A stretch of 64,000 bases of DNA from [Phialemoniopsis] sp. UDSM-2020. Taxonomy: Eukaryota > Ascomycota > Sordariomycetes > Thyridiales > Thyridiaceae. The stretch covers positions 3,305,482 to 3,369,481 of the forward strand of contig JAEILZ010000008.1 of assembly GCA_018873225.1 (NCBI GenBank), read 5' to 3'. The position numbers and the translations under genes were made by a program. The notes under the pieces are model-generated. The model saw only the letters and a list, made by a program, of their open reading frames with translations. It was not told the DNA's origin and made no database searches. The stretch's first letter is position 1, and the number at the start of each line of letters is the position of its first letter. Shown piece by piece: positions 5,171-64,000 of the stretch.

Positions 5171-6060
5171 TAGCCTCGGGAGTTTTTGTCAACTTTGGAC
5201 ACTGAGTTTGACAGATACACCGGGTCCCCACTTTGGGATCACTTCCTCAAAATGCCGCGGTGATCTCAAGTAGTGCTGCCATAGCGTAGACTTCTAGAGA
5301 GATATCATTTAACATCCCGCGGTATGAACAATAGCAATCGCATTGCAGATCATGGATCACCAAGTACAACACTTTGTCTGATATCTTGCCCTTGTGACTC
5401 TAAATCAGAACGGTTCAAGCTCTGAGGCTGACACGGTCTCCTCTCGTAAATACGAAGCCGGAGCCACATTGTTTTGGGGACACAGGGGTGGGCCCAACAC
5501 GACGCCATGGCTTCCGAGGCTATTCACTGATCTAATGTACCATAGATCTGGGCCATGAAGCTTGGCAATCATTTATATGCTAAAGTCTAGAGCTTTACCC
5601 TATCGACAGCATACGTCGGACCTTGGCACCCTCATGAATGGGCTGATCAGGTACAAGATGTTACGGGATTAATATCTTGCCCCAAGTCTAAAGTAGCTAA
5701 CACTCAATGACAGGGCATTTCGGAACCTAAGAAGGGTAAATTACTTAAGCCCGTCAGCTCCCTGGACACTAGCAGCAACTAAATTCCTTAATGTGGTGGA
5801 GACTCCACGCCACGCATCGCTCAGGTCCTTGGGGAAGTGAACACATGAATCATGGAGCTAGAGCAGCCCTAGAGTGAGCCCACTTTTGCATTCCAGGCTC
5901 CTTGTTGTGCTTCTGCATTACCTCCCACCGCTGTGCCTCCCATCCATTCTGAACTCGGACTGCATGCATCCCGTCGGCCGCGGGGATGAGGGGAACTGGA
6001 CTGCCGCCTGCACCCGCTTGACCCTGCGCAACCCCGGACTGGCCTCGCGCCGCCTGAAAC
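5171..6060. other. Intergenic between transporter and regulator
   Basis: 890 bp holding the transporter 3' UTR and the promoter of the Zn2Cys6 gene. Overlapping short ORFs at 5850-6254 run through the first exons of the regulator in other frames and are shadows. I see no gene or repeat. Confidence 0.5.
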
Positions 6061-8113: not shown

Positions 8114-8209
8114 GTCTAATCTGCTATGCCATTTGAACTAAATAATCATACTATGATGGAAAAGACATAATGTGCGAACAATCCCAAGCACCAATGTACC
8201 AAACAAGTC

Positions 8210-9721: not shown

Positions 9722-10570
9722 TTTTGCTGTGTATAATGACAAATCTAGACAAGGGTGCAGCTGTTGGAGAAGACAGAACGAGATATCGGAACAGAGGCAG
9801 AAGTGCTGAAGAACAGAAAGTGTTCAAATGTTCATAAAGAATGTCCCGTGTGACCCTGTTGGTATCCGGCGCGCGCGTCTGGGGTCTACGTTCTATGGGG
9901 TTAGTGTTGACTTTTTGTCCTGGGGACTTTTCTAGCCGCCCACCCGCACGATCCCCTCTTCAGGTCCCCAGACCCAAGTAAATAGTGGTGCTTGGCCTAG
10001 GAAAAGAGGGGATCATCGCCTGACATCTGACATCGAGACTGTGGTCCGCTTGCCGCGTGCACGCCGTGCAGATTATGCCACTCTCGACTTTGACAAATGC
10101 CGAGTGGAAACGCACTTAGTCAAGGCACGCAGCGAGTCGGAAATAACGCCCTGGTTCTCGGTCCCAGTTATTAAAATGGGGATGGCGAGTACCCCCGTGC
10201 CGCCTCCCCCCGCCCGCTACGGGGACACCAAGGCCGGGTCGTCTGGGGGGATCCGGGGGCGTCATGAGGTCTACCTTGTGGGGTTTGGAGGCCGTGTGAT
10301 CATCTACGAGTCTCTAAAACAATAGCCGATGGGGACAACATTGATGCGAACATCGGCCGGAGCGGCAAGGGGCTGCCGGCGCCGGTGTTTCGTGCTAGGC
10401 GCGAGTCCAGACGTCCAATTTCCACGACGACCATCCCTCTCGTCCACAACTGTTCGACTCTTTGCTTTCTTCTCGCGATTGAACACAGCAACCCTTCAAT
10501 TCTGATAATTGTTCCGACAGTCTTCTGGTAGATCTGACACCCCCCGCGAAGCCAAGAAAGAAATCTCACA
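9722..10570. promoter_or_regulatory. Divergent promoter, dehydratase / aldolase
   Basis: 849 bp separate the two divergent starts. It contains several CTGGGG-type hexamers in both orientations (around 9877-9882, 9920-9925 and 9965-9970) that fit the CreA consensus SYGGRG, plus C-runs around 10190-10250. An 11-bp inverted repeat, GATCCCCTCTT at 9950-9960 and AAGAGGGGATC at 10004-10014, flanks the middle CreA-like sites. ORFs inside (for example 10041-10325) are not supported. Joint, glucose-repressed control of both enzymes is inferred. Confidence 0.55.
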
Positions 10571-11524
10571 ATGGCACAATCACTACCAGGCGGCATATGG
10601 GCTCCGACCCAGGCATTTTTCGATGAGAAGACCGAGGACTTGGATCTCGCGACGATAGGCAAGCATGCTGTTCGTCTGGCCCAAGCTGGCTGCACCGGTA
10701 TCGTCACAAACGGTTCCAATGGCGAGTCTGTCTACCTGTCCCCGGCCGAACGCGCACTCCTCACGCGCACGACCCGCGATGCTCTCGATGCCGCCGGATT
10801 CTCGCATGTGCCGGTCATGTCTGGTGCCTCAGATCAGTCAGTCCGCGGTACATTAAGCCTCATCAATGACGCAAGAGACAGCGGCGCAAGCGCAGTGCTC
10901 CTGCTTACCCCGAGCTTCTTCAAGTGGGCCATGGACGGCACTACCATCGAGAACTTCTTCACGAAAGTCGCCGACAAGAGTGCTCTTCCCATCTTCATCT
11001 ACAACTATCCCGCTGCCGTATCTGGCATCGACATCGGTTCGGAGATGCTCATAAAGCTCGCGCAGCACCCCAACATCGTAGGCACCAAATTCACGTGCGG
11101 CAACATCGGCAAACTGGCGCGTGTGGCAGGCTCAACCGATAGCAAGGCTTACCACTGTTTCTCGGGTGTTGCCGATGCCATCACGCCCGCACTTACCGTG
11201 GGCGGTTCCGGAGCTATCGTTGGGGCAGCCAATGTCTTCCCGCGGATGTGCGTCAACGTCTACCGGCTGTTCAAGGAAGGGAAATATGAAGAAGCGAGAA
11301 TCGCACAACAGCAGCTGGCCCTTGCGGACTGGGAGCTGACCAAACGCGCCATCCCTGGTTTCAAGGCTATATTGCGACGGTATCACAACTATGGCGGACA
11401 GCCGAGGTTACCAATGCCGGCACTCACAGCGGCTGGCGAGAAGGAGTTGTTTGACGATATTGAGAGATTTATGGTTGTGGAGCAAAAACTATCAGACTTC
11501 GGAGCATCAACAACCTCATCATGA
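10571..11524 (+). CDS. DHDPS-family 2-keto-3-deoxy-sugar-acid aldolase (GaaC-like)
   Basis: Single-exon class I aldolase of 317 residues from the dihydrodipicolinate-synthase/N-acetylneuraminate-lyase superfamily. It is expected to cleave a 2-keto-3-deoxy aldonate into pyruvate and a C3 aldehyde (glyceraldehyde or lactaldehyde). The TIM barrel shows TNGSNGESVYLSPAER with the substrate-carboxylate loop, IYNYPAA with the catalytic Tyr144, and VGTKFTCGN with the Schiff-base Lys173. Length and motifs match the fungal 2-keto-3-deoxy-L-galactonate aldolase group (GaaC/LGA1). It is divergently paired with the dehydratase that would make its substrate, which supports consecutive steps of one non-phosphorylating pathway. 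Exact stereochemistry of the substrate is not determinable here. Confidence 0.9.
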   Translation: MAQSLPGGIWAPTQAFFDEKTEDLDLATIGKHAVRLAQAGCTGIVTNGSNGESVYLSPAERALLTRTTRDALDAAGFSHVPVMSGASDQSVRGTLSLINDARDSGASAVLLLTPSFFKWAMDGTTIENFFTKVADKSALPIFIYNYPAAVSGIDIGSEMLIKLAQHPNIVGTKFTCGNIGKLARVAGSTDSKAYHCFSGVADAITPALTVGGSGAIVGAANVFPRMCVNVYRLFKEGKYEEARIAQQQLALADWELTKRAIPGFKAILRRYHNYGGQPRLPMPALTAAGEKELFDDIERFMVVEQKLSDFGASTTSS

Positions 11525-29854: not shown

Positions 29855-30957
29855 ATGTCTTTGGACCAGTGGCCCGATGAGTCCATGTTCAAACATTTCT
29901 CTGTGTTTGAAGAGACGTTAGTTCCTTTCCTCAAATACTGCAACTTCATTGAGCTGGAGGATCTAACCATTGTACAGGTTCAAAACGGTAGAGACACACG
30001 AGATCCAAGCCGCGGTTCTCATGCCCAAGAATCTGAAGCCTGGCTCTCACCCAATCATTCTGAATTTCCACGGTGGCTTTTTGGTCTATGGCTCATCCCT
30101 CTTCGCCCCATTCTTCGCCCCGTGGGTGCTCAAGTTGGCTCTTGAGAATGCAGCTGTGGTAGTTTCGGCCGATTACCGCCTTCTTCCCTCAAAGAACGAT
30201 GTCGCCGACTTGCTTGAGGACCTTGAGGACTTCTGGAAGTGGACGCAGTCAGAGTTTCCTAACGTGCTTCGCCGGCGAACTCCTGATATCTCCATCGACT
30301 ACAACCATCTCCTCGTCACTGGCAGCTCGGGTGGAGGGTATTGTGCAACACAAATTGGACTGTCTCACCCGGACGAAATCTCAGCCATTGCCACAGCATA
30401 CCCCTTCGTCGACCCCCATGACGCTCTTATAGTCTCGGGCCCGGCCGCCGGAGAACGGTCGATATTGGGCAGCCCCGTTGAGGAGATGCCGTCAAAGGAG
30501 GCTGTACTGGCTTGGCTCGATACAGCTCGGTCGTCTGTCAAATCTAAGGCCGGATGGGAGAGAGCTCCGTATGCCATCGCTGCGACCCAATACGGGCTAT
30601 TGTACTCGAAGGTTATTGACCATCGTGGCTTGAACAAACCAGAGTTTTCGCCTTTGAAGCGGCTAGAGGCTGGAGCAAGACTACCGCGGAAAGTGTGAGT
30701 GTAAAACAAGATCCATTCTCGAAATCTACCTGCTAATCTTGTCTAGGTGGATCCTGCACGGTGATGATGACAGCGTTGTACACATTCGGGCTACACATAG
30801 ACTCGTGGACCTGATCCGTAGTAAGTCGCCTGAAACCACCGTCAGGATCGATATTGCGACTGGAGAGGATCACGCCTTTGACCTTTGCAAGACGTCGTGG
30901 GAGCTGCACGCTATTGGGGGATTGGATTTTGTAAAGCAGTCCTGGCTCGAGCAATGA
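29855..30957 (+). CDS. Alpha/beta hydrolase (hormone-sensitive-lipase/esterase-like)
   Basis: Hydrolase of about 329 residues, exons 29855-29916, 29978-30694 and 30747-30957. The oxyanion loop FHGGFLVYGS and the nucleophile elbow GSSGGGYCA identify the HSL-like esterase branch. The acid and base are probably Asp in HGDDDSVV and His in GEDHAFD near the C-terminus. No signal peptide is seen, so it should be cytosolic. It shares a promoter with the sugar epimerase and may hydrolyse a lactone or ester in the same route; that is inference. The 13-mer GTCGCCGACTTGC at 30201-30213 also matches the distant cluster motif but here simply codes for VADL. Confidence 0.85.
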
Positions 30958-47443: not shown

Positions 47444-47549
47444 TAGATTAGATCCGCAATACTGAGGTTCTTTCACCCTGAAACGGGAACATCTAAGCGA
47501 GCAACACCACACACACACGCACCGGTTGAGCCGAACCAAGCTGGCTAAG

Positions 47550-47714
47550 CAAGTAGGTGTCAGAAAGTTTGACGGTTTTGAATTAATCTCTACCCAAATT
47601 ACTAACAGATTGAGTGACCCAAATACGCTTAGGTAGTGGGATAACCCTAGGTGATCAGTTAAGAATTAGGGTACATCGAGAAGGCAAACCGTCAACTAAT
47701 CTGTCACCCACTTG
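47550..47714 (+). mobile_element. Intact 165-bp MITE with 5-bp target duplication CTAAG
   Basis: Terminal inverted repeats of about 30 bp begin CAAGTAGGTG on the left and, read from the other end, CAAGTGGGTG. The flanking pentamer CTAAG is present at 47545-47549 and 47715-47719. It has no coding capacity. Its internal core is GCTTAGGTAGTGGGATAACCC. The transposase donor is not in the window and the superfamily is not assigned. Confidence 0.85.
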
Positions 47715-49005
47715 CTAAGATGCCTATGAGGGTCTTTTATACTCCTGGTGATCCGTCCCAGTCTTTTCGTCCCACCATAACCGTCGCAACGGAGGCGCAT
47801 TGGAAATCAGGACCCGATCACTTGGCGTACTCTTGGCAGTGTGCCACCAAAGTCCAAACCCAGCATCATGAACAAAACGTGAAAACTTTTCTCTTTGCAC
47901 AAACCCCCTACCCGGTGCCACCCTTTGGAAAATGGGCTTAAGATTCAGGAGCTTGCCACTTCAGTGAGGGTAGACTCATGATATGTCGGGGAAACCGCCG
48001 TGCCAAGAACAAAAGTGCAAACATGCCCAGGAACCGTTTTACGTTTAGACTCTCGCCACACTTTGCGCTAACACCCTTTCCAAGCTACTAGCCGAGGGTT
48101 TGCTGAACCAACCTGGAGACGCGGCTTCTGCTCTTCATGTGCGAGAAGACGGCGAATTCCAGGTCTTGCCAGTCTCGACATTTCAGTCGTCGCGCATGAT
48201 GAAACAACGCTTTATCGGTCAGATGCAAACACAAAGGGCAGCTGAAAACTCTATTACAGTGTATTAACATCAAACAGCCCTGTCTGACCATTATGTGTAC
48301 TGTGGAAGGTCGACTGCCTTTTCTCTCTCATAAAGCTCCATCGGCTGCCAAGAAGCCAAGGCGCTTTTGCTAGAATGCCATTACCTAATGACGATTCAAA
48401 TGCCACAGCGGGAAGAGCTTGCTTGTGTCGACGAACCGGCAATCTGGGCGGCAGCAACGGTCTTGCGAATCATTGCCGGCTTGGGCCTGCCATGGTGACA
48501 CCCAATCATGATGGTCACAGTTTGGGGGTCTGGAGAGCTCCTTGGCCCCAACCTACAGATGCAAGCGGATGCGAGCCTGCGATCTCGGAAAAGCGGCATT
48601 TTCCGCAAACACAAGTTTTGCGTCTCTAGTAGCCAGCCAAGACCCTGGATCTGCAAAGCTTAGTAGGCGAGTTACACCGTCACATCTCCGCATATCACAC
48701 TGGCCGTGCTGCTTTCCTTCCGGCCAAAAGTATTTTGAGACATCCACAGTTCTAGTGTGCAAGCTGATATTGCACTGACGAGAGGCAAATCACTGATGAG
48801 AACTCGGGTTAACAGCAAATCAGGTACACTACCAGACACTCCAGAACCAGGTATGGGACCCAAGTTCGTAATGATCACCAAGGCTCAAGGCAACATAACA
48901 ATAAGCATTATGATTGGCCATGAGTATTTTCATTGTGCGCATGTAGAATCCTATTCAGTCCAGTGATTGCAGCGATGTTGGCCGGATTCAGATGTGATAT
49001 AATAT

Positions 49006-50368
49006 CTATATATGCCCTTTGATAGATTTCTCTGCGCTGTGGATGCGAACATTCAAGACGTTGCTTTCCTCGCTCATATTGTGAAGATCGTGAGACTCTA
49101 GGCACGCGTATCGACTGAGAAGAACCGCCTCGTACGTCCTTTCAGCAACCTCCAATTGGTAATCCTGTAGGGCTTGTTCTCTGGACTTTGTCCCACTTCT
49201 CCACTGCTGCAGCTGACGGACCAACTCGACAGCGTCATAAATGCCGTGGTTCGCCGCCTCACCGCGGTCTGTAGAAATGGTGTATGTCAGCAGAGTCTCG
49301 GGCAGACAAGCCTGCAGATGACGGGTACTCACACATTGTCATGGTATGCGCTGCATCTCCGAGTAATGATATCCGCCCACCACGAGACGGCCACTTCTGG
49401 GTTGGCCAGTCTTCCAACTTGATACCCAACGCTGGGCTATCATCAGGGATGCTGAGAATCGCTTTCCTCAGCTTAGGAAACATCCCTGTATCTGCCACAG
49501 CGGCTCTCTTGGCCTTTGCAATTTGTTCAATGGAGGTCTGAGGGGTCTCCCCATTCCGGTCCACCATCCAGCTCATGTTGAATTGCCCTTCGTAATATTC
49601 ATCCCCCGTGCCAAGGCTGTCATTTGTCTCCGGGGTGGAAAGTGCGGAGAAGAAGACGAAGTATCCCGATCCCGGATGGCAACCCTGCCAAATGACTGGA
49701 TGAATATCGAGGAATGGTTGGATTTGCTCCTGGGACATTTTCAAGGTAAGACCAATGAAGCCGACTGGCAGAGGGTTGAGCCGAGCATTCTCTTCGCCAA
49801 TCAATTGTCGCTTGATGGTGCTGTTCTTCCCGTCCACCGCAAGCAGAAGAGATCCCTCCACCTGAGTGCCGTCATCGAAGAAGGCGGTGACACCATCATC
49901 TGTAACGTCAAACCCTGTGCACCGATAACCCCAATTCACGTTAATATCCGTGGCGAGAAGGTGACGAAACTTCTTGCGATTGAGACGATAGAGTGTCGAT
50001 GCTGCAACAGAGCTCTTCTCCTCTCCTGTTTCCAAGTTTAAGAACCGATAGCGGTCATTTGCTACAGCATGTTAGTACACTTCCTGCCTCTTGAAAGTTT
50101 GGTATCGCGACTACCAACATTTATGCCCCGACTTTGGATTGACCTGAATAGATGGGATTTGCTCGAATACATCTGGCGGAAGACAAGCTTTGAGCGATGA
50201 CATGGCCCAATCCATCGTGATCCCCCAGCCAGCAGGTCGTTCGTCGATACTGTTATCTCGGTCGTAGATCTTGAAATCGAACCCAGCTTTCTTGAGGCCT
50301 TGTGCCAATGTGAGGCCGACAAGGCCAGCGCCAATGACGATGATCGGTTTAGTGTCTTCAATTGCCAT
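49006..50368 (-). CDS. FAD-dependent aromatic monooxygenase (PHBH fold)
   Basis: Class A flavin monooxygenase of about 413 residues, exons 50368-50119, 50061-49333 and 49268-49006. It should hydroxylate an aromatic or heteroaromatic ring using NAD(P)H and O2. Motifs in order: IVIGAGLVGLTLA (Rossmann GxGxxG at residues 12-17), then ERPAGWGITM, the DG motif in LLLAVDGKNSTIKR, and RISLLGDAAHTMTMYRGEAANHG, the GD motif binding the FAD ribityl chain. The third exon completes the last motif through a split Tyr codon. No signal peptide; cytosolic. It is divergent from the HOD-like dioxygenase with 539 bp between starts, mirroring bacterial pairs in which a flavin monooxygenase makes the 3-hydroxy-4-quinolone that HOD-type enzymes cleave (for example AqdB with AqdC). 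Two or three cluster-motif copies lie in the shared promoter. Confidence 0.9.
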
Positions 50369-50907
50369 GGCTTCAGGATGGTGAGTTGTGCGGCAGTGTC
50401 AGAACGGAGATGCAAATCGGATTCGATTTCTTATCATTGCCAATCTGAAGGGCTAGGACATCAATATTACTCCATGCGTCGACCATGGATATCTATTATC
50501 GACCTAGGGGGAGCAAATGGTCATGAGGACATCGCTTATCGGCGACATCAGCAAAGGGGTGTGTGGGTCGGGTGCAATCAAGGTTCCAAGTGATTGTCGG
50601 CGACTTCAGTGGTGGCCCGAGGCTAGAGCAGGCCGATAGGAAATCCAAAGGCTTTCCCGGCTAGAGCTCCGTCGATAAGAACCCTTGTTTCGGCGACTTG
50701 CTAGGTGTCTATTATTGCTCTGATTGAACCGAACGTGGATACTCAATGGTTCCGAGCCATCGTAGGACGTATATCAAGACGCGACGATAAGATTGAGATC
50801 AGACTTGAAGTTCAATATTGAGCAGCTGTAGGCTTTATTCTCTTAACCCATTCTCACGTTATCCAAACGACAATTTTGGAGAAGTTCATCGCAACAAAGC
50901 AGCCATC
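50369..50907. promoter_or_regulatory. Divergent promoter, monooxygenase / HOD-like dioxygenase, with cluster motif
   Basis: 539 bp. Copies of the motif GTCGGCGACTT are at 50596-50606 (exact), 50688-50700 (TTTCGGCGACTTG) and 50537-50549 (TATCGGCGACATC, weaker). Each holds a CGG half-site inside a short palindrome. Coordinate control of the divergent pair is inferred. Confidence 0.65.
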
Positions 50908-51720
50908 ATGCTCCTGACCAAGCAAATCAACGGTGTCGAAATATGCTATGACGAGTCAGGCTTCACTGACGGGCCAACCGTTGTGCTACTATCCGGATGG
51001 GCACATGATCTAAGACTCTACGATGAAATGCTGCCACTTCTGGCACCGAAGCATTGGGTCATTCGCGTCTGCTGGCGCGGGCATGGCCCATCTCGAGACT
51101 CAATTGCCGACTTTGGTGTCGAAGAGCAGTTCAACGACACAGTGGCACTCCTGGAGTCTCTCGGTGTCGAGCAGATGTACCTCGTCTCCCACTCTCACGG
51201 CGGGTGGCCTGCTCTGGAGATGGCGGATAGGCTCGGAAAAGCCAAGGTGCTCTGCCTGTTGATGATCGACCAGATCATGACACCGCCTCCACCACAGTTT
51301 GCTTCCGGGCTGCAAGCAATGCAGCAGAGGGACACTTGGCAAGCGGCACGGCGGGGTCTTTTTGAGAACTGGCAACATGGAAGCAGCAACAAGGCTGTGA
51401 AGAACCATTTCCTGTATTGCATGGGAAGTTACGGGTACGAGATGTGGTCACTCTCATGTCGAGTCATCGCCACTGCCTATGGCAAGCATGGCTCGCCAAT
51501 GAGCCGGATGACCAAGATTGAGAACCCGCCTCCTATCCGTCATGTCTTTTCGCATCCACTGAACAGCCCCGAGTACCGCCAAGTGCATGAGGACTTTGCA
51601 AAGAAGCACTCGTGGTTTTCTTACACAGACTTGAAGGGGGAGACGCACTTTCCTGACCTGGAGATCCCTGATCGAGTAGTGGAGCAGCTGCAGGACTTGA
51701 TTAATGGTAGCACTAGCTAG
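50908..51720 (+). CDS. HOD-like cofactor-independent 2,4-dioxygenase (alpha/beta-hydrolase fold)
   Basis: Single-exon protein of 270 residues from ATG 50908. It closely resembles bacterial 1H-3-hydroxy-4-oxoquinaldine 2,4-dioxygenase (HOD) and the PQS dioxygenase AqdC, which open the N-heteroring with O2 and no cofactor, releasing CO and an N-acylanthranilate. Seen are LLSGWAHDLRLYD (Trp31 and His33, matching HOD Trp36/His38), the nucleophile-elbow Ser96 in VSHSHGGW, Asp121 in LMIDQIM, WQAARRGLFENW, RVIATAYGKHGSPM, PIRHVFS, and the catalytic His247 in GETHFP. The usual alpha/beta-hydrolase triad is therefore complete, so plain esterase activity is not excluded. The HOD-specific blocks outside the triad argue for dioxygenase function. 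Length is close to HOD's. It is divergently paired with the flavin monooxygenase. Confidence 0.85.
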   Translation: MLLTKQINGVEICYDESGFTDGPTVVLLSGWAHDLRLYDEMLPLLAPKHWVIRVCWRGHGPSRDSIADFGVEEQFNDTVALLESLGVEQMYLVSHSHGGWPALEMADRLGKAKVLCLLMIDQIMTPPPPQFASGLQAMQQRDTWQAARRGLFENWQHGSSNKAVKNHFLYCMGSYGYEMWSLSCRVIATAYGKHGSPMSRMTKIENPPPIRHVFSHPLNSPEYRQVHEDFAKKHSWFSYTDLKGETHFPDLEIPDRVVEQLQDLINGSTS

Positions 51721-52209
51721 AGAAGTATCCGGAGTAAATGAGAATTAGTTCTTGCAATGATAGATGTCTTTCACAAGCGTCGTGTTGGCATGTGGACTTT
51801 GGAGTCGCGTACATCTAACTCTAAGCTTTGTTCACATAGCATTAATTTTCGACATGCAGGCTGCAGTTGGGCCTCAACTCTACGAACCACCTCTGAATTA
51901 CCCATTCGTGAACACCCAGGAAATGTCTCAACTACGCTGCGTAGTTTATGGGCTCTCAAGCACTTATGTCGCCGACTTGCACGATCAAGTCGCCGACATG
52001 AGCCTTGGTCCACTTTTTCGACCGCGCTAAGGCTGCCAAGACCTGGGGAACATTCAAGATAACGACACGATGGGCGACGCCCGGACTTCTGCTTTATCTT
52101 CCAAGGACAGCTTTGTTGCTGATAGACTCGTGCTACATAAGCTGAACGATGGAAGCGCACCTCAAGGAAACGTCACCCCACCAGATCCGACAGTGACACA
52201 ACAACAAAG
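51721..52209. promoter_or_regulatory. Promoter of the NCS1 permease with paired cluster motifs
   Basis: 489 bp between the dioxygenase stop and the permease start. The motif pair is given separately. Small ORFs at 51757-52160 are not supported. Confidence 0.5.
51968..51997. promoter_or_regulatory. Inverted pair of cluster motifs upstream of NCS1 permease
   Basis: GTCGCCGACTTG at 51968-51979 and CAAGTCGCCGAC at 51986-51997 form an inverted pair separated by 6 bp. They lie about 215-240 bp upstream of the permease start. The same 15 bases GTCGCCGACTTGCAC recur upstream of the carboxylesterase at 58352-58366. Confidence 0.7.
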
Positions 52210-53866
52210 ATGTCTCCGCAAAGCAACACCGAGAAACCCATGACTCCAGTGACCGACATCGAGCAGAACATGACAAAGGCAGAGTCTCAGTCACCGGAGT
52301 CAGTGGTGGAAGAAGGAATCATCGAGGACCTCGTCGCACCCAGCTCCTTCAAGGCCTTTCTCAAGAAACTAGCCTTGGCCGGGGTCGAGGTGCGAGGTCT
52401 CGAGCCAATTCCTCCCGAGAAGCAAACTCATACCCGCTACTTCAACGTCCTGACGTTGTTCGGGGGATCATTCATCTCCATCTTGCCGTAATAAATCCCT
52501 CTATCCTGACGCTGCATCAGCTATGCTGACTCTTGAGTTCCAGCCTGAGTATCGGTACCACACCAACGCTCGTGTTTGGTCTCTCCTTTCGAAATGCCGC
52601 GGCTATGATTGTGTCTATGCAGCTAGTCATGATCATCCCCACGCTCTATATCTTGACACTGGCCCCTAGACTGGGGATGAGGCAGTCGGTTCAGTTCCGC
52701 TATGCATTCGGGTGAGTTGGCAATATCGCCATCTACCAACACGCCTTGATTCTGACTCTTGCTCCAGAAAATATCCGAATGCCCTGATCTCCCTCAGCAC
52801 AATCGTCTCCATCGGCATCTTTGGCATTCTCGCAGCTGTCGCAGGTGGCGAGTGTCTCGCAGCAGTCCGTACTGGCACCCTGACTGTCGAAGGCGGCCTG
52901 AGCATCATCATGGCCATCGCTATCGTTATCGGCTTCTTCGGCTACCAGTGCCTACACATCATCTGCCAGTATATATGGATTCCGAACTTAGTATGCCTCT
53001 TGATCTTCATCGGATGCGCGAGCAAGGGACTACAGAACCAGGCGCCACAAGTGTCGTCAGGAGCGAGGCCCTATCTCTCGACCATCACCATTGCCGCTTC
53101 CAACATGGCCACATGGGGTACGATCATCGGAGACTACACGTGCTACATGCCTCACTATGCACCCAAAATGCGGCTTGTCGTCTACTGCCTCCTCGGTCTC
53201 TACGTTCCGTTCACCTTGATGATGATCCTCGGTGCTGCCCTGGGCGGTGCTATCACGAGCAACGAAACTTGGCTAGCTGCCTACGGAACTGGTAGTCTGG
53301 GAGGTGTGCTCGGCGAGATCTTGACGTCTCGTGTCGGCAACTTTGGACGCTTTGTCCTCGTCATTCTTGGCTTTTCCATTGTTACCACCTCAGCGAGAGA
53401 CATGTACAGCATCTCCCTATTCATCGCGTCATTTATCCCTTGGTTGCACCGCATTCCTCGAGTCTTTCTTCTCCTATGTGTAGCCGGAGTCATGATTGGT
53501 GTCGGTATCGCTGCGTCTAGGTCCTTCCTCCCGGCACTCACTACGCTAGTGAGCATCGCGGGATACATGACCGGTCCGACCGTTGGGGTTTACTTGGTAG
53601 AGTGGTTTGTCTTTCGCAAGGCCGATCCTACGAGCATGGACCCCAAGATCTGGAATGATTCTCGTGCTCTGCCTTCGGGAATACCCGCTATCATCTGCGC
53701 CATCGTTCCGTGGGCTCTGATTGTTACTTCGATGGATACTCCTTGGTACACTGGGCTTATTGCTAAGCATACGGGCGATCTAGCGTATGAGCTTGGGGCT
53801 GTTAGTGCTGTTCTTTTATATCTACCACTACGAGCAGCTGAGATTAGATACCGTGGACGTTTGTGA
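52210..53866 (+). CDS. NCS1 nucleobase/heterocycle permease (purine-cytosine permease family)
   Basis: Membrane symporter of about 514 residues, exons 52210-52487, 52544-52711 and 52768-53866, with about 12 helices. After a hydrophilic tail the protein shows VEVRGLEPIPPEKQTHTRYFNVLTLFGGSF, typical of the Fcy2-like branch, then LSIGTTPTLVFGLSFRNAAAMIV (helix 1-2), RQSVQFRYAFGKYPNALIS, and ASNMATWGTIIGDYTCYMP in the substrate-site region. The family carries flat N-heterocycles such as purines, cytosine or allantoin across the plasma membrane with protons. Position next to heteroaromatic-degrading enzymes, and a shared promoter motif, suggest it imports the cluster's heterocyclic substrate. Confidence 0.92.
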
Positions 53867-54545
53867 TGGCAGGACAAGGGTGGCTTATCTAGCTTGTCTC
53901 TTTTTCTTGGTGGTTGTGTCAATGGCATTCGCAAGGGTGCTACATCTTGCACTCAAGTTCAATTCGATCTGAAAAGAAGTCCGCAACGCTCTATACTTTG
54001 TCTGAAATTATTGACTTGACATCAAATGTGAATTCTCCGTCTCAACCATGGAGGTTTTAGCAGCTGTCTGGATTGTGAAGCTAATCAATATGGAGAAATA
54101 TAGTCAACCTCCCAAGCGGGTGACAGATTAGTTGACGGTTTCCTTCCCCGTATACCTCAATTCTTAAACTGAGTACCCAGGATTATCCCACTACCCAAGC
54201 GTACAAGGCTCATTCAGTCTGTCAGTAGCTTGGGTAAAGATTGATCCAAATCGGTCAACCTTTCTGACGCCCACTTGCCTCCTTGTTGAGCGCCTCCACT
54301 TCATGATAAGGAGTGAGTGGAGCCCTGCTAGGTTGAGGAGCTAGCTTGGTTAGCTCTCGCCATCCTTAGACTAGACTAGAGCGACAGAAAGCGGGGGTGA
54401 ACTGCCGCCAGAGATAGCATTCGCGTCTTTCCACCCAGGCCATCCAGGTGATCAGTCTCTCCCCAGCCTTTCAAACCACCTGTTTGTCGGGTGTAGTGTT
54501 CTCATGACTGGGCTCTATAAGCCTTTACTCCTCTTGTTCTGAGGT
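53867..54545. other. Intergenic with an intact MITE
   Basis: 679 bp between the permease and the next regulator. Holds the 165-bp MITE at 54113-54277; otherwise no supported gene. I found no copy of the cluster motif here. Confidence 0.5.
54113..54277 (-). mobile_element. Intact 165-bp MITE with 5-bp target duplication CCTCC
   Basis: Same length and order as the copy at 47550-47714 but in the opposite orientation. Ends are CAAGCGGGTG and, from the other side, CAAGTGGGCG. The pentamer CCTCC lies at 54108-54112 and again at 54278-54282. The two copies differ at scattered sites, so insertion is not very recent. Confidence 0.85.
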
Positions 54546-56804
54546 ATGTCTGAAGTCCAATCCAGTCTGCGAGCGCGGGTTGCCTGCAAGACGTGCAATG
54601 CTCGCCGAGTCCGGTGCGATCGCTCAGCCTTGGGAGGAGCGTGCTCCAATTGCCAACAGGCTGGTACGCCTTGCGAGCTGATTGAGTCGAAGCGTGGGAA
54701 GTAAGCATACCGCTTGACCTCAATATGAACTTCTGGACCTCGCTTAACTTGAACTCTTCCCCAGGCACAAGCGTTTACGGCGCAAGAAACAGCATGGCGA
54801 GTCTGCTTCCCAGACATCCGAGGCAACCACGATCGCTGCCCCCATCCTCAGTGACGGCATGTCTACGCAAAGCTCAGGGTTGCAGAAACAATCACCGCAT
54901 ATGCCTGAAACAAGGCGATATGTCAGCCCGTCACTCCCAGACTTCGTCATCCACAAGGAGTCCGACAATCTCGGCGGCAAGGTCGTCTATATGGGCGATT
55001 CGGGTAACATGAAATATGTTATTCACGAAGTCGGTGACCCATTCAAACACTCACCCGCGCAGCATAAGCTATGGGGCGACAATCTACAACGATACATGGT
55101 CGATAAGCTCGGCCCTCAGACGCAGATGGCCCTGCGGAACATGCGACTTGAGGACGAGCAGCACCTAAGAGACCTAGGTGTCTTTCAATACCCAGAAAAG
55201 CGGATCAGCGACGAGATGGTGGCCACCTTCTTCAAATCCTCCTATCCAGCGTTTCCGATTTTCAACCGAGGCGAGTTCATGAGTCTGTATGAAAGACAAC
55301 GGCTGTCGCCCCTGCTTCTGAATGCTGTATACTTCATGGCTTGTATTCACTGTCAAGACAATCTTCTACGTGATCTCGGCTTCACGTCACGTTATCTCGC
55401 CTGTCTCACGTACTATCGGCGTGCAAAAGCCCTCAGCGACGCTGACCACGACTCCGACGGCATTGCCACAGTCCAAGCACTCGTTCTCTTGTTGAACTGG
55501 TGGGGAGGACCAATGGACCAGAAGGATACTTGGCACTGGCTTGGATGTGCCGCCAACTTGTCTCAGGGGCTCGGCATGCATAGGAGGTAAGTTTGGCCGC
55601 ACGATGCTTCCGGAAGACTCCATTCTGACAGTCGAATGCAGTAAATCGTACGCGGCCTTGTCGTCTTCGCGCGCAAGACTATGGCGTCGGATCTGGTGGG
55701 TTTTGTATGTGAGTAGATGGGTTCCTTGCCTCTCTGTTGTGAACCTGCTAACACTCCTGACAGATCAACGACATTCATTACGCAGCAGTGTATGGTCGGC
55801 CACCGCACATCCATCAAGACTTTTGTGACATCACACCGCTTGTCGAAGACGATTTCTCGGACTGCGAGTATGATGATGCAAGTGGTGCACACGAGGCCAA
55901 GCTGTATATGATCCACCTTGCAGACCTAGCCTGCCGCGTAGGTAACTGCCTCTCCGCAAAGTTCTCGGCAGCTCAGGATGCCGAGGCAGAGCAGAAACGG
56001 TACCACGAACTTGTCGACTTTGAAAAGACTCTACCGGCTTCATTTGCCAACTCGGCGGCGAACATCACCTCGGCTCAAGGATTCTGGCCAGCATTGGTGC
56101 AGTTGTACCACTGCGACTATCAAATAATCTTTCACCGCATGCTATCCGATGCTCCCGACAACGGAGTGACTTTTGTAGCGGCAGGCAAGATCAGCCGTAT
56201 TCTGGAAGACCTGCTGGCATCTGGCACGCTGTACCAGGCGCCGTTCATGATCCTCCCCGCCATCTTTGCTTCGATCCTTGTACACATCATTCACATCCGC
56301 AAGGGCAACTCTCACATGCAAGTCATTGCCGAGCACCGCGCACGGCTGGCTATGCACATCCTGGACAACTTTCAGGAGACGTGGCCATTGGTCATATGGA
56401 CGCGGCATCTACTAGACTGTCTGCTCAAAGGCTCATCTTCTTCTGCCAGAGCAACTGAGTCATCAGAACAGCACATGGCGGGCGCTCAACCTCTCCCTAA
56501 TCATCAAATATATTTACCCGACGACCAGAACGGGGAAAGGATCTGGGCCACCCAGACCAGCCACGAGCAAAATTTCTCGCACCTCAATCCAGGGGGGCGG
56601 CTCGAGACACCTGTATCGACGAACGATGACACTTCACCCGAACAGGGCATGGAATCTTTTCAGCTGGATCAGTACGCGGTGCTCAATGATCAAGCCCTTG
56701 GACCAATGCCGTTGATGTTCCCACTTAATAACATGTTGGAGGATGCAGGGTTAAGCCCTGATAGCTGGCTTTTTGACTTTAACAATTTGCAGTCATATTT
56801 GTAG
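54546..56804 (+). CDS. Zn2Cys6 transcription factor, probable regulator of the heterocycle cluster
   Basis: Regulator of about 694 residues, exons 54546-54700, 54765-55586, 55642-55708 and 55764-56804. The zinc cluster CKTCNARRVRCDRSALGGACSNCQQAGTPC is at residues 14-43, directly followed by a basic linker (GKHKRLRRKKQ). The fungal-specific domain shows FFKSSYPAFPIFNRGEF, LLNAVYFMACIHCQDNLL, ANLSQGLGMHR, RLWRRIWWVLYINDIHYAAVYGRPPHI and a Gln/Asn-rich, acidic C-terminus. This is the cutinase-regulator (CTF1)/amidase-regulator type that often controls local catabolic genes. It lies between the permease and the carboxylesterase and ends 7 bp from the esterase's stop codon. It is the obvious candidate to bind the CGG-containing palindromes of this cluster. 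Confidence 0.9.
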
Positions 56805-56811
56805 GATAGCG

Positions 56812-58146
56812 TTATACCAGATCCGACAGTGTAAAACCTTTATCAATCGTGATGTACTCGCTCTTGAGACATCTTCCCTTTATAAACTCGGCCCAAAGAT
56901 CTTTCAACTGGGCACCCAATTCTCTGACGTCTTCTTCCGATTCGTCTCCCTCGCCGTGCAGCATCGGTGCCTCCTTCCAACTGGCCCAGTCGCCAAGCAC
57001 GAAGGGGATATCAATACAGTGATTGGCAGCCAGAGGACTACGCGGCGGATGCCACTTGAAGTTGTACAAGGTCGATCTCCCACCTGACCTTAGTGCTTGC
57101 CTGTGGAATTCCTGGGAGGGCCACTGAAAATAGCTACGCGAGACAAACCACGTGCCGACTGCCTCGAGATAGTCACCGAGCATGGGTAGTGAGAACAGGC
57201 TTCTTCCGGGTCCCATCATACGCGCAAATGGACGGCCATCTTGTGCTGTGCAGCCTATAATGATGGGGATATCCTTGAGCTTCTCTGCGAGCCGCCGATG
57301 ATAGCCGCTCTCGTTCGGCAACGGGTCGTGACCCAGCGAGGGAGCGAAGAGCATAACTTGGTCGCGCACCGGATCTAGCAAGAGGCTCTTCTGTATGTCA
57401 AGGAGCTCCGCGACGGACATTTCTCGAGGATCCTTGGTCAGCAGTGACTGAGCCTTTGCCGAGAGAAGAGCCGTAGTCGGTATGCGCTCGCAAATCTCTC
57501 GCAAAGGAGGGCTCATAAGAATCGCGCGATGAAGCAGATCCTTAGTTCCTTCCGAGGCGAGCAAGCATATGATTGAATCGGCTCCGGCAGATTGGCCTGC
57601 CATAGTCACGTTGCCCGGGTCGCCCCCGAAGACTGAGATGTTGGTCTGTATCCATTCCAGCGCAGCCTTTTGGTCAATGAGGCCCAAGTTGGCAGGGGCA
57701 ATCCCTAGTAAGTGCAGATAGCCAAAGACCCCGAGGCGGTACGACACGTTGACACAGACGATCCCCCTCTTGGCCAGGTCCAATGGCTGATAGCAGTCCA
57801 GGTCGCCGCCGCCAGATATGAATGCTCCGCCGTGTAGCCATACTAGTACTGGCATATTCTCGCCGTGGTCCGGCGCCGTCACGGTGACATGAAGGCAGTC
57901 TTCGTCAAATTCGCGCCCTCTTGTCACAGGTCCTATGACGGACTCCAGTCGAGACGGGAGCTGGGGGCACAGCTTGGCCGGCCGAGTGCAATCTCTGGCC
58001 GCAGTCCACTTGGGGACGGGCTGGGGTGGCTGAAAGCGTTCCGCCTGAGCATACGGAACACCGCGAGCGCGAACCAGGCCATCTTCGACTCGCGCGGAGA
58101 TCGGTCCCGCTGGCAGCTGGATGGTGACGATGTCTTGCCGAGCCAT
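56812..58146 (-). CDS. Type-B carboxylesterase
   Basis: Single-exon carboxylesterase/lipase of 444 residues from ATG 58146. Seen in order: the N-terminal family block VRARGVPYAQAERFQPPQPVPKW, EDCLHVTV (residues 82-89), the oxyanion loop LHGGAFISGGG (104-113), NLGLIDQKAALEWIQTNISVFGGDPGNVTMAGQSAGA with nucleophile Ser186, and the late His in NHCIDIPFVLG. It is shorter than the usual 520-560 residues and has no signal peptide, so it is probably intracellular. It carries an exact copy of the cluster motif in its promoter. In bacterial quinaldine degradation an amidase of this fold family hydrolyses the N-acylanthranilate after ring cleavage, so an analogous step is plausible here; substrate is inferred. 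Confidence 0.88.
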   Translation of the reverse strand: MARQDIVTIQLPAGPISARVEDGLVRARGVPYAQAERFQPPQPVPKWTAARDCTRPAKLCPQLPSRLESVIGPVTRGREFDEDCLHVTVTAPDHGENMPVLVWLHGGAFISGGGDLDCYQPLDLAKRGIVCVNVSYRLGVFGYLHLLGIAPANLGLIDQKAALEWIQTNISVFGGDPGNVTMAGQSAGADSIICLLASEGTKDLLHRAILMSPPLREICERIPTTALLSAKAQSLLTKDPREMSVAELLDIQKSLLLDPVRDQVMLFAPSLGHDPLPNESGYHRRLAEKLKDIPIIIGCTAQDGRPFARMMGPGRSLFSLPMLGDYLEAVGTWFVSRSYFQWPSQEFHRQALRSGGRSTLYNFKWHPPRSPLAANHCIDIPFVLGDWASWKEAPMLHGEGDESEEDVRELGAQLKDLWAEFIKGRCLKSEYITIDKGFTLSDLV

Positions 58147-58349: not shown

Positions 58350-58363
58350 AAGTCGCCGACTTG
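58350..58363. promoter_or_regulatory. Cluster motif upstream of carboxylesterase (AAGTCGCCGACTTG)
   Basis: AAGTCGCCGACTT at 58350-58362 is a perfect palindrome around its central base. It is about 205 bp upstream of the esterase start. The 15-mer GTCGCCGACTTGCAC is identical to the copy upstream of the NCS1 permease. Confidence 0.7.
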
Positions 58364-58819: not shown

Positions 58820-60890
58820 AGAAAAGTTACGCCCCCAGGCTTTAGTGCGGGGGGCGTAAGCCGCATTTAGTATGGGGAACCCAGGGCGCATAAAGTATTC
58901 GAGTTACGCCCCCCTTGAGCTGCACCAAAACTACACCAAAACTTCTGGTTACGCCCCCCACGGTTGTGCAATACCACATCACAAGCAACAATCGTGCGCT
59001 GTCGTTTTCTGATTTGCAAAAATGGACAATTGCTTCCAAGAAACAACGCGGAGGAGTTTGGACCAATCGCACGGCACTCCTCGCGCATCCATACACAGTT
59101 CTCGGGTGCGCACTTTGCGCGGCTTGGACAACGGGACACGGAGCAATGGCAAATGTCGGGCGCGCAACCCGATGAACCAGACCACAATTGATATGATTTT
59201 CGCGATGCGCGATTGGCGTCTGTCCAATTCCTTGATACTGTGATCGAACATTGCAAAGAACATACGTTGCGCATTATCTCATGCGAAAATGTTCCCGACT
59301 TGGTGCGGGGCGTAACCTCTGTTTAGTATGGCCAGACTGGGGCGCGTAACTTTTGCTGGCATTGCGCACAGGTTTTGGTGAGGGGGGCGTAAAGACCATT
59401 TAGTATGGCAGACATGGGGGGCGTAACAGCTTGGCTCAAGCGAAAGTTACGCCCCCCTCGGGCCACACCAAAACCACACCAAAACTTTTCTTTACGCCCC
59501 CCAGCCATTGAAGCGCATCACAACCAGCAGCGTTGACACTGCAATAAATCGCTGCAGCTTCTTGAAAACTATACGCACAGCATGCATTTGCATCTAGCTC
59601 AGTTTCCCATGTCAATTCGCATTCGGCAATGCGGAATTGGTGATTGCGCACTTTGGATTTGGTGCAGGGGGCGTAACACACATTTTGTATGGGAAATCTG
59701 GGGGGCGTAAGATCTTTGGTCGACCGAAAAGTTACGCGCCCCTGAGCCCACACCAAACTTACACCAAAATCTCCCGTTACGCCCCCCTCTCCCATTTCGC
59801 TTGCGCGCCCGCCCAGAGACTCCATGCAGATGAGATACCATCTTGCCTGTGCTCCAAGGCAAAGACTTATATCGATTGAGCGACTCTGCAAATGTACCCT
59901 TTGATTGCGCGCGCTGTCCCAAGTCAATTGCGCATTGATTTGGTTTTGCCGAGCGGGGCGTAAGACCAAAAAGTCACGCCCCCCGACTTCACCATACTAA
60001 AATGCTGTTACGCCCCCTCCACAATTTGCGCATCTGTGCAAAGCCAAACAACACCTTGTGAAGGCTTCAAGGGATCTTCTTACGTGCGCTTCGATCGATT
60101 TGTTTAAATCAATGCTTTCAATGATGATTTTCCGTCGTGCTGCAATGCAGTATCGCATTTATCGCTTGTGCTGGCTCAAGTCAATTGCGCATGCGGGTTT
60201 TAGTGAGGGGGGCGTACGAGCTCTCCAGTAAGGTAAGTCTGGGGGGCGTAAGATTCAAAAGTTACGCGCCCCGGTTTCGCCATACTAAAAGCACGTTACG
60301 CCCCCCTCACCAAATTGCCAGCAAATGTTGCGCGCGCCCATGTCAATCGTTCAATTGAGTACAAGACGGAGCGAAAGCCTTGTTGATTACACAGTGGTTC
60401 TCTTTGTGCACTCATGCGATCTGATTTCTCAATCCGAGCTGCAGTGTTACCTTTGTTGTTTTGATTCTGGTGAGGGGCGCGTAACACGCATTTTGTATGG
60501 GAGACCTGGGGGGCGTGTGCAACATGCAACCCGACGCCCTACCTCTCTTATGTGCGCGCCCATGTCAATCGCTCAATTGAACGCTTATACGGCACTGCAA
60601 CTTCATGGTTTGCCTTGTCTTTGAAACGGGCTCGAGTCTGAATTGAATCTTTCAATTCAAGTTGGCGCATTGGGTGCTCGCGCCTGGTTTTGGCGAGGGG
60701 GGCGTGACATTGAATGCGATTTGGTCAGGGGGGCGTAAGCACGTTTTAGTATGGGTGACCTCGGGGGCGTAACTTGGGGTGCGATTTTTGGTGGGGGGCG
60801 TAACTCAAGTCGGTCCAGAAAGTTACGCGCCCCTCCAGTTGTACCAAACTCACACCAAGATTCAAAGTTACGCCCCCCTCAAACTCTCAA
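58820..60890. repeat. Array of inverted GGGGGCGTAA / TTACGCCCCC modules
   Basis: About 29 copies of (G)GGGGCGTAA or its reverse complement, some with a single base change such as GGGGCGCGTAA, lie within about 2.07 kb. They are accompanied by about eight copies of TTTAGTATGG (or CCATACTAAA, or TTTTGTATGG) and by ACACCAAAACT blocks. They group in about seven irregular modules near 58.83-58.96, 59.30-59.50, 59.66-59.79, 59.95-60.02, 60.20-60.31, 60.47-60.52 and 60.69-60.89 kb. A typical module reads GGTTTTGGTGAGGGGGGCGTAA, then TTTAGTATGG, then GGGGGGCGTAA, then TTACGCCCCCC with ACCAAA. No coding function is seen. Confidence 0.85.
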
Positions 60891-61671: not shown

Positions 61672-62319
61672 ATGTCGGCCGAGAGCGCCATCCGCACCGA
61701 CCATAAGGGTCTGAGTCCCGACGTGAAATGGGGCTGGGTCATCTACCGCTGCACCTACGCCGACGACGCCGCCTGGGCGCAGTTCCGCGCCCTCGTCGAG
61801 CAGCGGTCGCGCGCCCGCATCGCCCGCTCCGACGCGCCAGATATCGCCGACCGCCTCGAGTGGGTGTGGGTCGAGGACAAGGCCGCGCTCGACGGCGCGT
61901 CAAAGGCATCGCTGCGCACGCGCTTCCGCGAATGGGTTGCCGGCCAAGTCGCAGCGCAAAAGAGCCGTGGCGGCGACGATGCCGACTTCCACCCGGGGGC
62001 GATACCGCGCTATAGCTTCTTTGTGCAGGTCGACGAAGAGGCGCTGCGCAGCATGGCGGCGACCACGCAGGGCTCGTCTGCGTCTGCGTCTTCGTCTGCG
62101 TCTGGCGGACGCTGGCCAGCCGAGGCGCATGTCAACTTTGTCAACGCCAACTGGAAGCCCCTGGCGGAGCTTGTTCCTGACATGGAGGCAAGCGCGAGGG
62201 ACGACGACTCGTACGACGCGGTCGAGGGATGTCGCGAGGAGAATGTGGGTTGGATGCGTATATCACCAAACAGTCTGAGCGCGGGCTTACTATTATTCCC
62301 TATTGCCTTTAACCCTTAA
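61672..62319 (+). CDS. Hypothetical GC-rich fungal protein, C-terminus replaced by AT-rich sequence
   Basis: Open frame of 215 residues from ATG 61672 (an in-frame ATG at 61498 adds 58 residues of low-complexity sequence). The block KWGWVIYRCTYADDAAWAQFRALVEQRSRARIARSDAPDIADRLEWVWVEDKAALDGASKASLRTRFREW, then RYSFFVQVDEEALRSM, resembles an uncharacterised family common in filamentous fungi. A short Ser/Ala low-complexity insert follows. After GWMRI the frame crosses a sharp drop in GC content at about 62260-62280 and ends in unrelated residues, so the native C-terminus is probably lost. Function is unknown; it is likely a truncated copy. Confidence 0.6.
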   Translation: MSAESAIRTDHKGLSPDVKWGWVIYRCTYADDAAWAQFRALVEQRSRARIARSDAPDIADRLEWVWVEDKAALDGASKASLRTRFREWVAGQVAAQKSRGGDDADFHPGAIPRYSFFVQVDEEALRSMAATTQGSSASASSSASGGRWPAEAHVNFVNANWKPLAELVPDMEASARDDDSYDAVEGCREENVGWMRISPNSLSAGLLLFPIAFNP

Positions 62320-63400
62320 ATCCCTTTCTTTAGGTGAGAGTGGTCAAAGCGTTATACCCTCACATCCCTTTCCCTTATATCCCTAACCCTTAATAGCTAA
62401 ATAATTCTAGTAGATTTGATTTATTTTACTAGGAGGGATAGTCTGTATATAATAAAGATAGGGGGTAGATTTAAATTTATTTTATAGAGTAAATTTAAAT
62501 TTAATAAACCCTTTTAAATTTTCTGGAATTTCTTATATAATAAGATAACTTTATAAAGAAGATCCTATAGGAATTCTATTTAATACATCTTAATACTTAA
62601 AGAGTTATTATATCTTAAATATTCTTAGGATTAGAAATAGTTATTAAGATTTAACTAATTAGAAAAAGTAAATAGATTATATAATAAGAAATAAAATAAA
62701 TAGGTTATATAATAAGAAATAAGAATCTTTAGCTAAATAGTAGATTATTAACTATACTTATTAAGGATAGATAATAATATAATTAAGTCTAGTCTCTTTA
62801 TCTTTACTTTATAGAATTTAAAATTAGATATTAGCTATATATTTAATGAAAATTCTCTTTTAAATAGTAGAATAACCCTAAATAATTAAATTATAGAATA
62901 ATTCTAAATAATTAATTAAGAATTAAAAGATTTAAATAGGTATCACAAAATCAAGGCATAGTACCACAGGGCAGCAACCCAGGCAGTTAAGAACAGCAGA
63001 ATAGATAAGATAAGCAATTACAGGCAATCAATAATTCTTACTAATCCAAAGTAATTTAATCACAACGGATTAGTAATCCAGAATAATTTAACTATCTATA
63101 TATACAGATAAGGTCTACCCTTAGATACCTACCTAGATAACTCTTTAGTATTTAAAATATTTTTACCTAATAATATACCTTTAAGTAAAAGCTATCTTAA
63201 GCTATAATCAGTCAACTTATATTATTACTCTACGCCCATCACTTACTATTAGTATAAACCCCCTATACATTCTATCTTAGGTACCCTAAGGGTCTAAGAT
63301 AAAGGATTATTATACATTAAATACTCTTATTTAGTAAATAGACTACACTCTAAGTAATAACACAGAAGGAACTATATCAGGATCTTAATCAACTAATTCT
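62280..63400. repeat. AT-rich block, probably RIP-mutated repeat
   Basis: GC content falls abruptly from strongly GC-rich coding sequence to TA/AA/TT-rich DNA with no ORF above 60 codons. Internal direct repeats are visible, for example AATAGGTTATATAATAAGAAATAA-like segments around 62675-62725 and AATAATTCTAAATAATTAA-like segments around 62870-62930. The left edge (62310-62395) has degenerate CCCTTAA/CCCTAACCC-like runs. It is consistent with C-to-T repeat-induced point mutation of a transposon. Confidence 0.7.
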
Positions 63401-63899
63401 AAACCAACCTATACCATAAAGCAAGCTATCATTAAGATTCAACAGCTAGAGAGACAGCTCACTACAATACAAGCCTATATTAGAGGCACTAAGTACAAAA
63501 TACCTAAGGCATTTTCAAGAGAAAAGAAAGACTTATAAGGATTCCTTACTTAATACCGCACCTACATCCAAAAATACAGTCATAACTTCCTATATATCAC
63601 CAACTAGATTCTATTTACAGCCACTAAGCTTAAAGGGAAGGCACTCATCTAGTTCAAACCTATATAGCGGGACTTCCTTAAGAAGTCAGTAATAGAACAA
63701 CAAAAGAGAATATAAAATCTATTTATAGATAGATTTAATACTTTTAAGAAAGTAATTAAAGATACCTTTAGAGATCCTAATAAGGAGAGATCAGCTAAAT
63801 AATAACTTCAGTAGTTATAATAAGTCGGATTAGCCACCTCCTATATAGTAAAATTCCAATAGATTACAGCTAACTTAGGATAAGATAATAAACCCCTTA
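63400..63899 (+). mobile_element. Ty3/Gypsy retrotransposon gag remnant, stop-riddled
   Basis: One plus-strand frame from about 63490 to 63899 keeps the gag capsid pattern of fungal Gypsy elements (PKAFS, GKAL-x-x-FKP, RFNTFKK, FRDPNKER, ITANLG) but is interrupted by many in-frame TAA/TAG codons at places where Trp or Gln would be expected. This is the pattern left by RIP. The fragment is cut off by telomere repeats. No LTR or pol is present. Confidence 0.7.
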
Positions 63900-64000
63900 T
63901 AGGGTTAGGGTTAGGGTTAGGGTTAGGGTTAGGGTTAGGGTTAGGGTTAGGGTTAGGGTTAGGGTTAGGGTTAGGGTTAGGGTTAGGGTTAGGGTTAGGG
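63900..64000 (+). repeat. Telomere, (TTAGGG)n, right chromosome end
   Basis: An uninterrupted array of nearly 17 TTAGGG repeats runs to the window end with the G-rich strand 5'-3' pointing outward. This is the normal telomere unit of filamentous ascomycetes and shows the window ends at a chromosome terminus. Confidence 0.98.

Follow-up and report, generated by a model that had tools for sequence, protein, structure and literature searches.

Results

The cluster and its genes

We studied a cluster of five genes from the ascomycete [Phialemoniopsis] sp. UDSM-2020, located at positions 49006-58146 of a 64,000-nucleotide stretch of contig JAEILZ010000008.1 that was analysed as a whole and is called here the window. 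It is the last 64 kb of a contig of 3,369,481 bases, in a genome of 44.18 Mb assembled in 11 contigs. TTAGGG telomere repeats run from about 63900 to 64000, i.e., the contig end is a true chromosome end, and the distance from cluster to telomere is ~5.8 kb. Together with the introns and the type of regulator, the telomere marks the window as fungal. The genes encode a group A flavin monooxygenase (FMO), a dioxygenase assigned to the 3-hydroxy-4-quinolone 2,4-dioxygenase family of AqdC and HOD (HQD), an NCS1-family permease, a Zn2Cys6 regulator and a type-B carboxylesterase (Table 1). A first-pass annotation, made from the sequence alone, had listed these five genes with nothing unrelated between them. 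The spliced models and frame translations bore out the five genes, and in the spaces between them only short frames (e.g., one of 133 aa at 51771-52172 in the minus strand, not domain-scanned) and a dispersed repeat were seen. Introns are predictions from consensus splice sites and an open frame. Two findings set the group apart from a chance assembly (see below): AqdC and AqdA each have a specific relative in it, and a common promoter motif precedes four of the five genes.

Table 1 Genes and sequence features of the cluster, in window coordinates
Feature	Position	Strand	Length	Details
Group A flavin monooxygenase (FMO)	49006-50368	minus	413 aa	two predicted introns (50062-50118, 49269-49332)
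Divergent FMO/HQD promoter	50369-50907		539 bp	three TCGGCGAC core sites at 50539, 50597 and 50690
HQD, putative 3-hydroxy-4-quinolone 2,4-dioxygenase (AqdC/HOD family)	50908-51720	plus	270 aa	intronless
Two perfect palindromes AWGTCGSCGACWT	51966-51978, 51987-51999			upstream of the NCS1 gene
NCS1-family permease	52210-53866	plus	514 aa	two predicted introns (52488-52543, 52712-52767)
Dispersed repeat resembling a miniature inverted-repeat transposable element (MITE)	54100-54278			between the NCS1 and regulator genes; inverted copy at 47549-47727, left of the cluster
Zn2Cys6/Fungal_trans regulator	54546-56804	plus	694 aa	three predicted introns (54701-54764, 55587-55641, 55709-55763)
Type-B carboxylesterase (PF00135), AqdA sister	56812-58146	minus	444 aa	intronless
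Perfect palindrome AAGTCGCCGACTT	58350-58362			204-216 bp upstream of the esterase start

The dioxygenase

A phmmer search of all PDB chains with the window HQD gave 300.9 bits (E 6.9e-89) for AqdC of Mycobacteroides abscessus, 233.6 bits for HOD and 176.3 for QDO, against 35.9 bits for the next alpha/beta hydrolase. With an AlphaFold2 model of the protein (mean predicted local distance difference test score 90.2, from an alignment of 14 sequences), Foldseek returned only AqdC, HOD or QDO at PDB ranks 1-19, with template modelling scores of 0.92-0.95 by query length (0.92-0.96 for the AqdC chains); after rank 19, E fell from 5e-27 to 1e-15. An ordinary esterase or hydrolase was ruled out by these bit scores and this ranking. 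The HOD residues H251, D126, S101, W36 and W160, whose roles are given in the portion of PMC10548524 consulted, corresponded to H247, D121, S96, W31 and W155 of the window HQD, with the His-Asp dyad kept. The first-pass annotation had called this gene HOD-like and proposed comparison with the HOD, QDO and AqdC structures and placement in a tree; its call agrees with the bit scores, the tree and the Foldseek ranks, and the grouping with ordinary esterases that would have spoken against it did not occur. Judged by sequence and predicted fold, the candidate is a true member of the HQD family.

HQDs were rare, being present in three of 396 actinobacterial genomes at E<=1e-30 (the centre genome is one of the three). 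A plasmid tblastn search found 118 records, of which 16 had a match spanning 80% or more of the query; the best matches were from Nocardia farcinica (54% identity), Prescottella equi (49%), Rhodococcus erythropolis (AqdC2, 42%) and Arthrobacter (MeqE/HOD, 42%). An alignment-based search of genome contigs added 15 actinobacterial HQD loci at 45-53% identity; the scan of genome contigs with the HQD as a single-protein query gave no match. Overall, the fungal protein was 42-54% identical to 22 non-duplicate actinobacterial HQDs, with a distant one (locus L085) apart at 31%. The closest protein found was the N. farcinica HQD of locus L019 (54%); an HQD from a different strain of that species cleaves the Pseudomonas quinolone signal (PQS), according to the part of PMC8961568 seen.

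A 24-row maximum-likelihood tree took its root from the two most distant HQDs and left out the PDB copy of HOD (the same protein as in L022); in it the fungal HQD stood on the AqdC side with 16 bacterial rows (a 17-row side, support 89/84, not starred), and the branching inside that fork had no resolved order. Trees that held it with four Actinomadura HQDs or with Arthrobacter HOD were rejected by the approximately unbiased test (p-AU 0.004 and 0.011, respectively). The fungal HQD shared Met at HOD position 143 and Cys at 189 with row L028 of the AqdC side. Matches with E above 1e-20 (which removes L002 and L003) and L001, L083 and L061-L063 were left out of the residue comparison.

Some bacterial loci had unusual arrangements. 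In Microtetraspora (L030, 714-2913) an AqdA-like gene and the HQD gene are 55 bp apart or overlap in open frame, there was no AqdB-like match, and the elbow residue is Ser as in the fungus. In Actinomadura (L036 and L038, ~4200-10800) the HQDs adjoin an amidohydrolase, and in L036 a ketosynthase and an O-methyltransferase as well; these loci gave no match resembling AqdA or AqdB, and their HQDs are perhaps biosynthetic. A Pantoea agglomerans plasmid (L023, 5001-5768) encodes a distant HQD-like protein (31%) with Gln and Val in place of His at HOD positions 38 and 100.

The esterase

AqdA belongs to the type-B carboxylesterases, and its presumed role is the hydrolysis of N-octanoylanthranilate (PMC5332414, partial text). 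The window esterase matched the carboxylesterase upstream of the HQD gene in 13 of the 20 loci L019-L038. When six HQD-bearing actinobacterial genomes were searched whole, its best match was the AqdC neighbour in five (211-263 bits versus at most 156 for the next esterase); the sixth, an Actinomadura genome, had no such carboxylesterase beside its HQD. In a tree of 44 carboxylesterases the window esterase was sister to all 13 AqdA proteins (100/99) and not nested among them. Grouping with 11 other carboxylesterases of this fungus was rejected (p-AU 0.0007), which rules out kinship with the 11 included; the tree kept 11 of the 19 other own-genome loci, as matches spanning <180 residues were left out. 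From both this tree and the HQD tree of 25 rows (see Discussion) we omitted L001, L039, L083 and L059-L063, which are the window's own genes or repeats of L024-L032 genes. Two signatures, around HCI[DE]xPxxxG and SRLxxVMG and picked after viewing the alignment, were both present in the window esterase and each in 10 of the 13 AqdA proteins; neither occurred in any of the 20 other bacterial esterase frames or the 19 esterase frames from the fungus's own genome. The esterase fits the amide hydrolase step, and we propose it as the N-acylanthranilate amide hydrolase.

The shared promoter motif

Inspection of the promoter regions revealed an 8-mer, GTCGCCGA (complement TCGGCGAC), at six sites ~170-370 bp from start codons: three in the FMO/HQD region, two before the NCS1 gene and one before the esterase gene. 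In 2000 dinucleotide-preserving shuffles, the top 8-mer common to all three regions never reached six (largest 4). Note that the motif was noticed by eye and the three regions were named afterwards, a choice that taking the shuffle maximum over all 8-mers does not remove. The 8-mer is the core of the palindrome AWGTCGSCGACWT, present in full at the NCS1 and esterase genes. The full palindrome had 23 sites genome-wide versus 5 for a reversed control pattern, and three of the 23 were in the cluster within 6.4 kb; a fourth in the window, at 30199, was set aside as chance because it lies inside the open frame 29967-30698. The shared motif fairly supports co-regulation, in keeping with a single regulon.

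Monooxygenase, permease, regulator and surroundings

The exon-2 frame of the FMO matched FAD_binding_3 with 17 bits, below the cut-off of 22; its best PDB matches were flavin monooxygenases, and the motifs GAGLVG and GDAAH were present. The permease matched PF02133 with 51.8 bits (cut-off 23.5) and TIGR00800 with 109.9 bits, under the cut-off of 353.1; two further loci of the NCS1 family, at 36-37% identity, were found in the same genome. The regulator had a PF04082 match, and its Zn2Cys6 motif was read by eye in the translation.

The dispersed repeat is ~170 bp long and had 40 scored matches among 246 candidates genome-wide. Its copies left of the FMO gene and in the NCS1-regulator gap are inverted and 76% complementary, the latter copy being absent from the 40 listed. 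Between the cluster and the telomere, 58826-60876 contains 13 copies of GTTACGCCCC or its complement in ~2 kb, embedded in longer repeats, both direct and inverted, that belong to several families. An AT-rich stretch at 62000-63900 (GC 0.32-0.35) had TpA/ApT values rising to 1.58 and (CpA+TpG)/(ApC+GpT) values falling to 0.54, a pattern like that left by repeat-induced point mutation.

Discussion

These comparisons make it probable that the locus is a subtelomeric catabolic cluster, inducible by its substrate, for the breakdown of a 2-substituted 4-quinolone. The NCS1 permease would bring in this heterocycle, or a polar compound related to it, which would be sensed by the Zn2Cys6 protein; the latter may bind the AWGTCGSCGACWT palindrome or its core in front of the FMO/HQD, NCS1 and esterase genes. 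The FMO would hydroxylate C3 of the quinolone; the cofactor-free HQD would deprotonate the C3 hydroxyl through its His-Asp dyad and let O2 cut the ring, with release of N-acylanthranilate and CO; and the AqdA-type hydrolase would cut the amide, so that anthranilate and a carboxylic acid would pass into general metabolism. These two, with CO, are the most likely products of the imported 4-quinolone. A 2-alkyl-3-hydroxy-4-quinolone is favoured as the dioxygenase substrate because two of the enzymes are akin to AqdA and AqdC. The enzyme families are well supported and co-regulation fairly so; the position attacked by the FMO, the substrate of the transporter, the binding of the regulator to the motif, the inducer and the identity of the quinolone are what we infer around them.

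A more specific proposal is that the locus is a eukaryotic regulon in which this fungus has rebuilt the actinobacterial pathway for destroying alkylquinolones. Genes of the aqdC and aqdA types would have been gained together, probably from actinobacteria, the fungus's own monooxygenase, importer and regulator would have been added, and the whole would be used against antifungal or signalling quinolones of Pseudomonas and Burkholderia. We put this forward tentatively. Several observations weigh against the general reading, quinolone breakdown. NCS1 carriers are known for small polar bases, not for greasy alkylquinolones, and no motif site was found in front of the regulator gene. The esterase is only 34-39% identical to AqdA proteins, with a long branch (1.42) and a letter make-up flagged as odd in its tree. 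The place of the HQD on the AqdC side depends on the root, because in a tree of 25 rows, with two far own-genome hydrolases as the outgroup, it fell into an unresolved fork of eight rows (87/84) that included HOD, the Actinomadura HQDs and distant rows; that tree had end branches of 10 and was redone without the far outgroup as the 24-row tree. In both trees the fungal HQD was close to where the AqdC group meets the other HQDs; with the root of the 24-row tree it would stand at or near the base of the AqdC-type side. Its pocket departs from that side as well. At HOD position 177, which PMC10548524 (text seen) names among the ligand-contacting residues, the fungal HQD, HOD, four Actinomadura HQDs and two distant HQDs have Met, and all 16 bacterial AqdC-side rows have Ala, Ser, Thr or Cys; the elbow (HOD position 101) is Ser, where 15 of those 16 rows have Ala. 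A small residue at position 177 is a correlation seen here, not an established criterion of the AqdC subgroup, and it is absent from the fungal HQD; that this position governs chain length is our own suggestion.

The monooxygenase is a further difficulty for the general reading. The best AqdB-like HQD neighbour was 23% identical to it (45.8 bits; AqdB-like neighbours of HQDs gave 22-26% in the longer alignments), versus 41% and 305 bits for a paralogue elsewhere in the fungal genome, and the top match in those loci (46.2 bits) was a different flavin enzyme of Microbacterium. AqdB-like proteins beside HQDs were 47-70% identical to AqdB of L026; such an enzyme lay between AqdA and HQD in 12 of the 13 AqdA-bearing loci, at 51-70% to the L026 protein (itself among the 12). 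Orthology with AqdB is thereby ruled out, and the fungal FMO may therefore do something else; if it performs the same step as AqdB, that step is filled by a fungal-type group A enzyme. The flavin monooxygenase of the first-pass annotation consequently stands as a group A enzyme and fails as an AqdB orthologue, with 3-hydroxylation of 4-quinolones as its putative activity. The overall reading offered there is upheld in part, for the HQD, the amide hydrolase and the regulon, and not for an AqdB-type monooxygenase.

The same chemistry could serve another purpose, the nutritional use of a short-chain or a plant or soil 4-quinolone (e.g., of the 2-methyl type), a possibility that we rate at not far from an even chance. 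Met177 and Ser101 in the pocket are HOD-like, and HOD has a 2-methyl substrate; the importer is of NCS1 type; and fungi keep inducible catabolic clusters for N-heterocycles, e.g., hxn for nicotinate (abstract of PMC8478523). A clade with Arthrobacter HOD was rejected, however, and the sister of the amide hydrolase is AqdA, for which a substrate with an octanoyl chain is presumed (PMC5332414, in the part seen). It is because the two pocket residues speak against a long chain and the importer suits a smaller polar ring that we rate bacterial signals as the target well below quinolone breakdown as such. Less probable, and on balance unlikely, is that only the HQD and the esterase are a real pair, the FMO, NCS1 and regulator genes belonging to another heterocycle pathway (e.g., a purine-like one) and standing here by chance or recent joining. 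The best NCBIfam model for the FMO was the urate hydroxylase HpxO (87 bits, far under the cut-off of 500), no AqdB-like protein was found with the AqdA and HQD of the bacterial locus L030, and the dispersed repeat stands between the NCS1 and regulator genes; but the FMO and HQD genes share one divergent promoter, whose motif recurs before the NCS1 and esterase genes.

A biosynthetic role, with the HQD trimming a quinolone intermediate in a secondary metabolite route, seems improbable. The HQD of Actinomadura L036 does adjoin a ketosynthase and an O-methyltransferase, and a cytochrome P450 frame lies ~9 kb left of the fungal cluster; against this, the 17 window frames that were Pfam-scanned (not all of the window's frames) included no synthase-type core enzyme, and an amide hydrolase and an importer point to breakdown. 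Bacterial contamination or misassembly, which might be suspected from the intronless HQD and esterase genes and from nearest relatives that were all bacterial (in searches of bacterial collections and the fungus's own genome), has next to no likelihood. We rejected it on the three genes with predicted introns that lie intermixed with them on a single 3.37 Mb contig ending in TTAGGG repeats, and on the GC content at third codon positions: 0.64 for the HQD and 0.63 for the esterase, like three other window frames (0.62-0.68) and unlike the HQD frames of four actinobacterial loci (0.87-0.95). The likeness to other window frames also means that a transfer, if any, was not recent. Joint gain of the A- and C-type genes appears the simplest reading.

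The chemistry and the bacterial clusters are known, and in the literature surveyed, much of it seen in part, bacteria are the only organisms described as destroying quinolone signals by means of an HQD. The HQD subfamily was reportedly defined by Wullich et al. 2020. A fungal paper, PMC10906660, cites that work, in the part of its text seen, only for the alpha/beta-hydrolase fold in general. The string 'fung' is absent from the main text of PMC8961568, PMC5332414, PMC10548524 and PMC9687290, and the titles and abstract openings listed in searches of open-licence papers showed no fungal HQD pathway, a level of search that does not show that none is in print. Alkylquinolones including PQS and 2-heptyl-4-quinolone (HHQ) inhibit several fungi according to the seen part of PMC7731028, so that the pathway, if our proposal of a rebuilt alkylquinolone-destroying regulon is true, would answer chemical attack by bacteria directly and at the molecular level. 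It would also be a case in which eukaryotic transport and control have been added to a core of two bacterial enzymes, and a source of new enzymes for signal quenching. The locus makes it testable whether fungi quench bacterial quorum signals.

Three known systems resemble the fungal cluster. The hxn nicotinate regulon of Aspergillus nidulans is likewise a set of inducible fungal genes for an N-heterocycle with its own regulator, and horizontal transfer is reported in its history; its ring, enzymes and regulator are different (PMC8478523, abstract). The meq genes for quinaldine in Arthrobacter sp. Rue61a, with HOD/MeqE, also have an FMO, an HQD, an alpha/beta hydrolase and a transporter in a row, and the same residues at positions 101 and 177. 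In that case, however, the clade of the fungal HQD with HOD was rejected (p 0.011), L022 had no COesterase match, and a xanthine dehydrogenase-family set adjoins meq, whereas none was seen among the Pfam-scanned window frames. The aqdRABC genes of Rhodococcus erythropolis BG43 and Mycobacteroides abscessus share with the fungal locus an HQD of or near the AqdC side, AqdA (sister of the fungal esterase), a flavin monooxygenase and a regulator, all together. They form an operon with a TetR regulator and AqdB, whereas the fungal locus, in a eukaryotic host, has a Zn2Cys6 protein, a non-orthologous FMO, an additional NCS1 permease and separate promoters in both orientations. With genes of the A and C types and not of the B type, the fungal cluster may work like the aqd cluster as something other than an orthologous copy of it.

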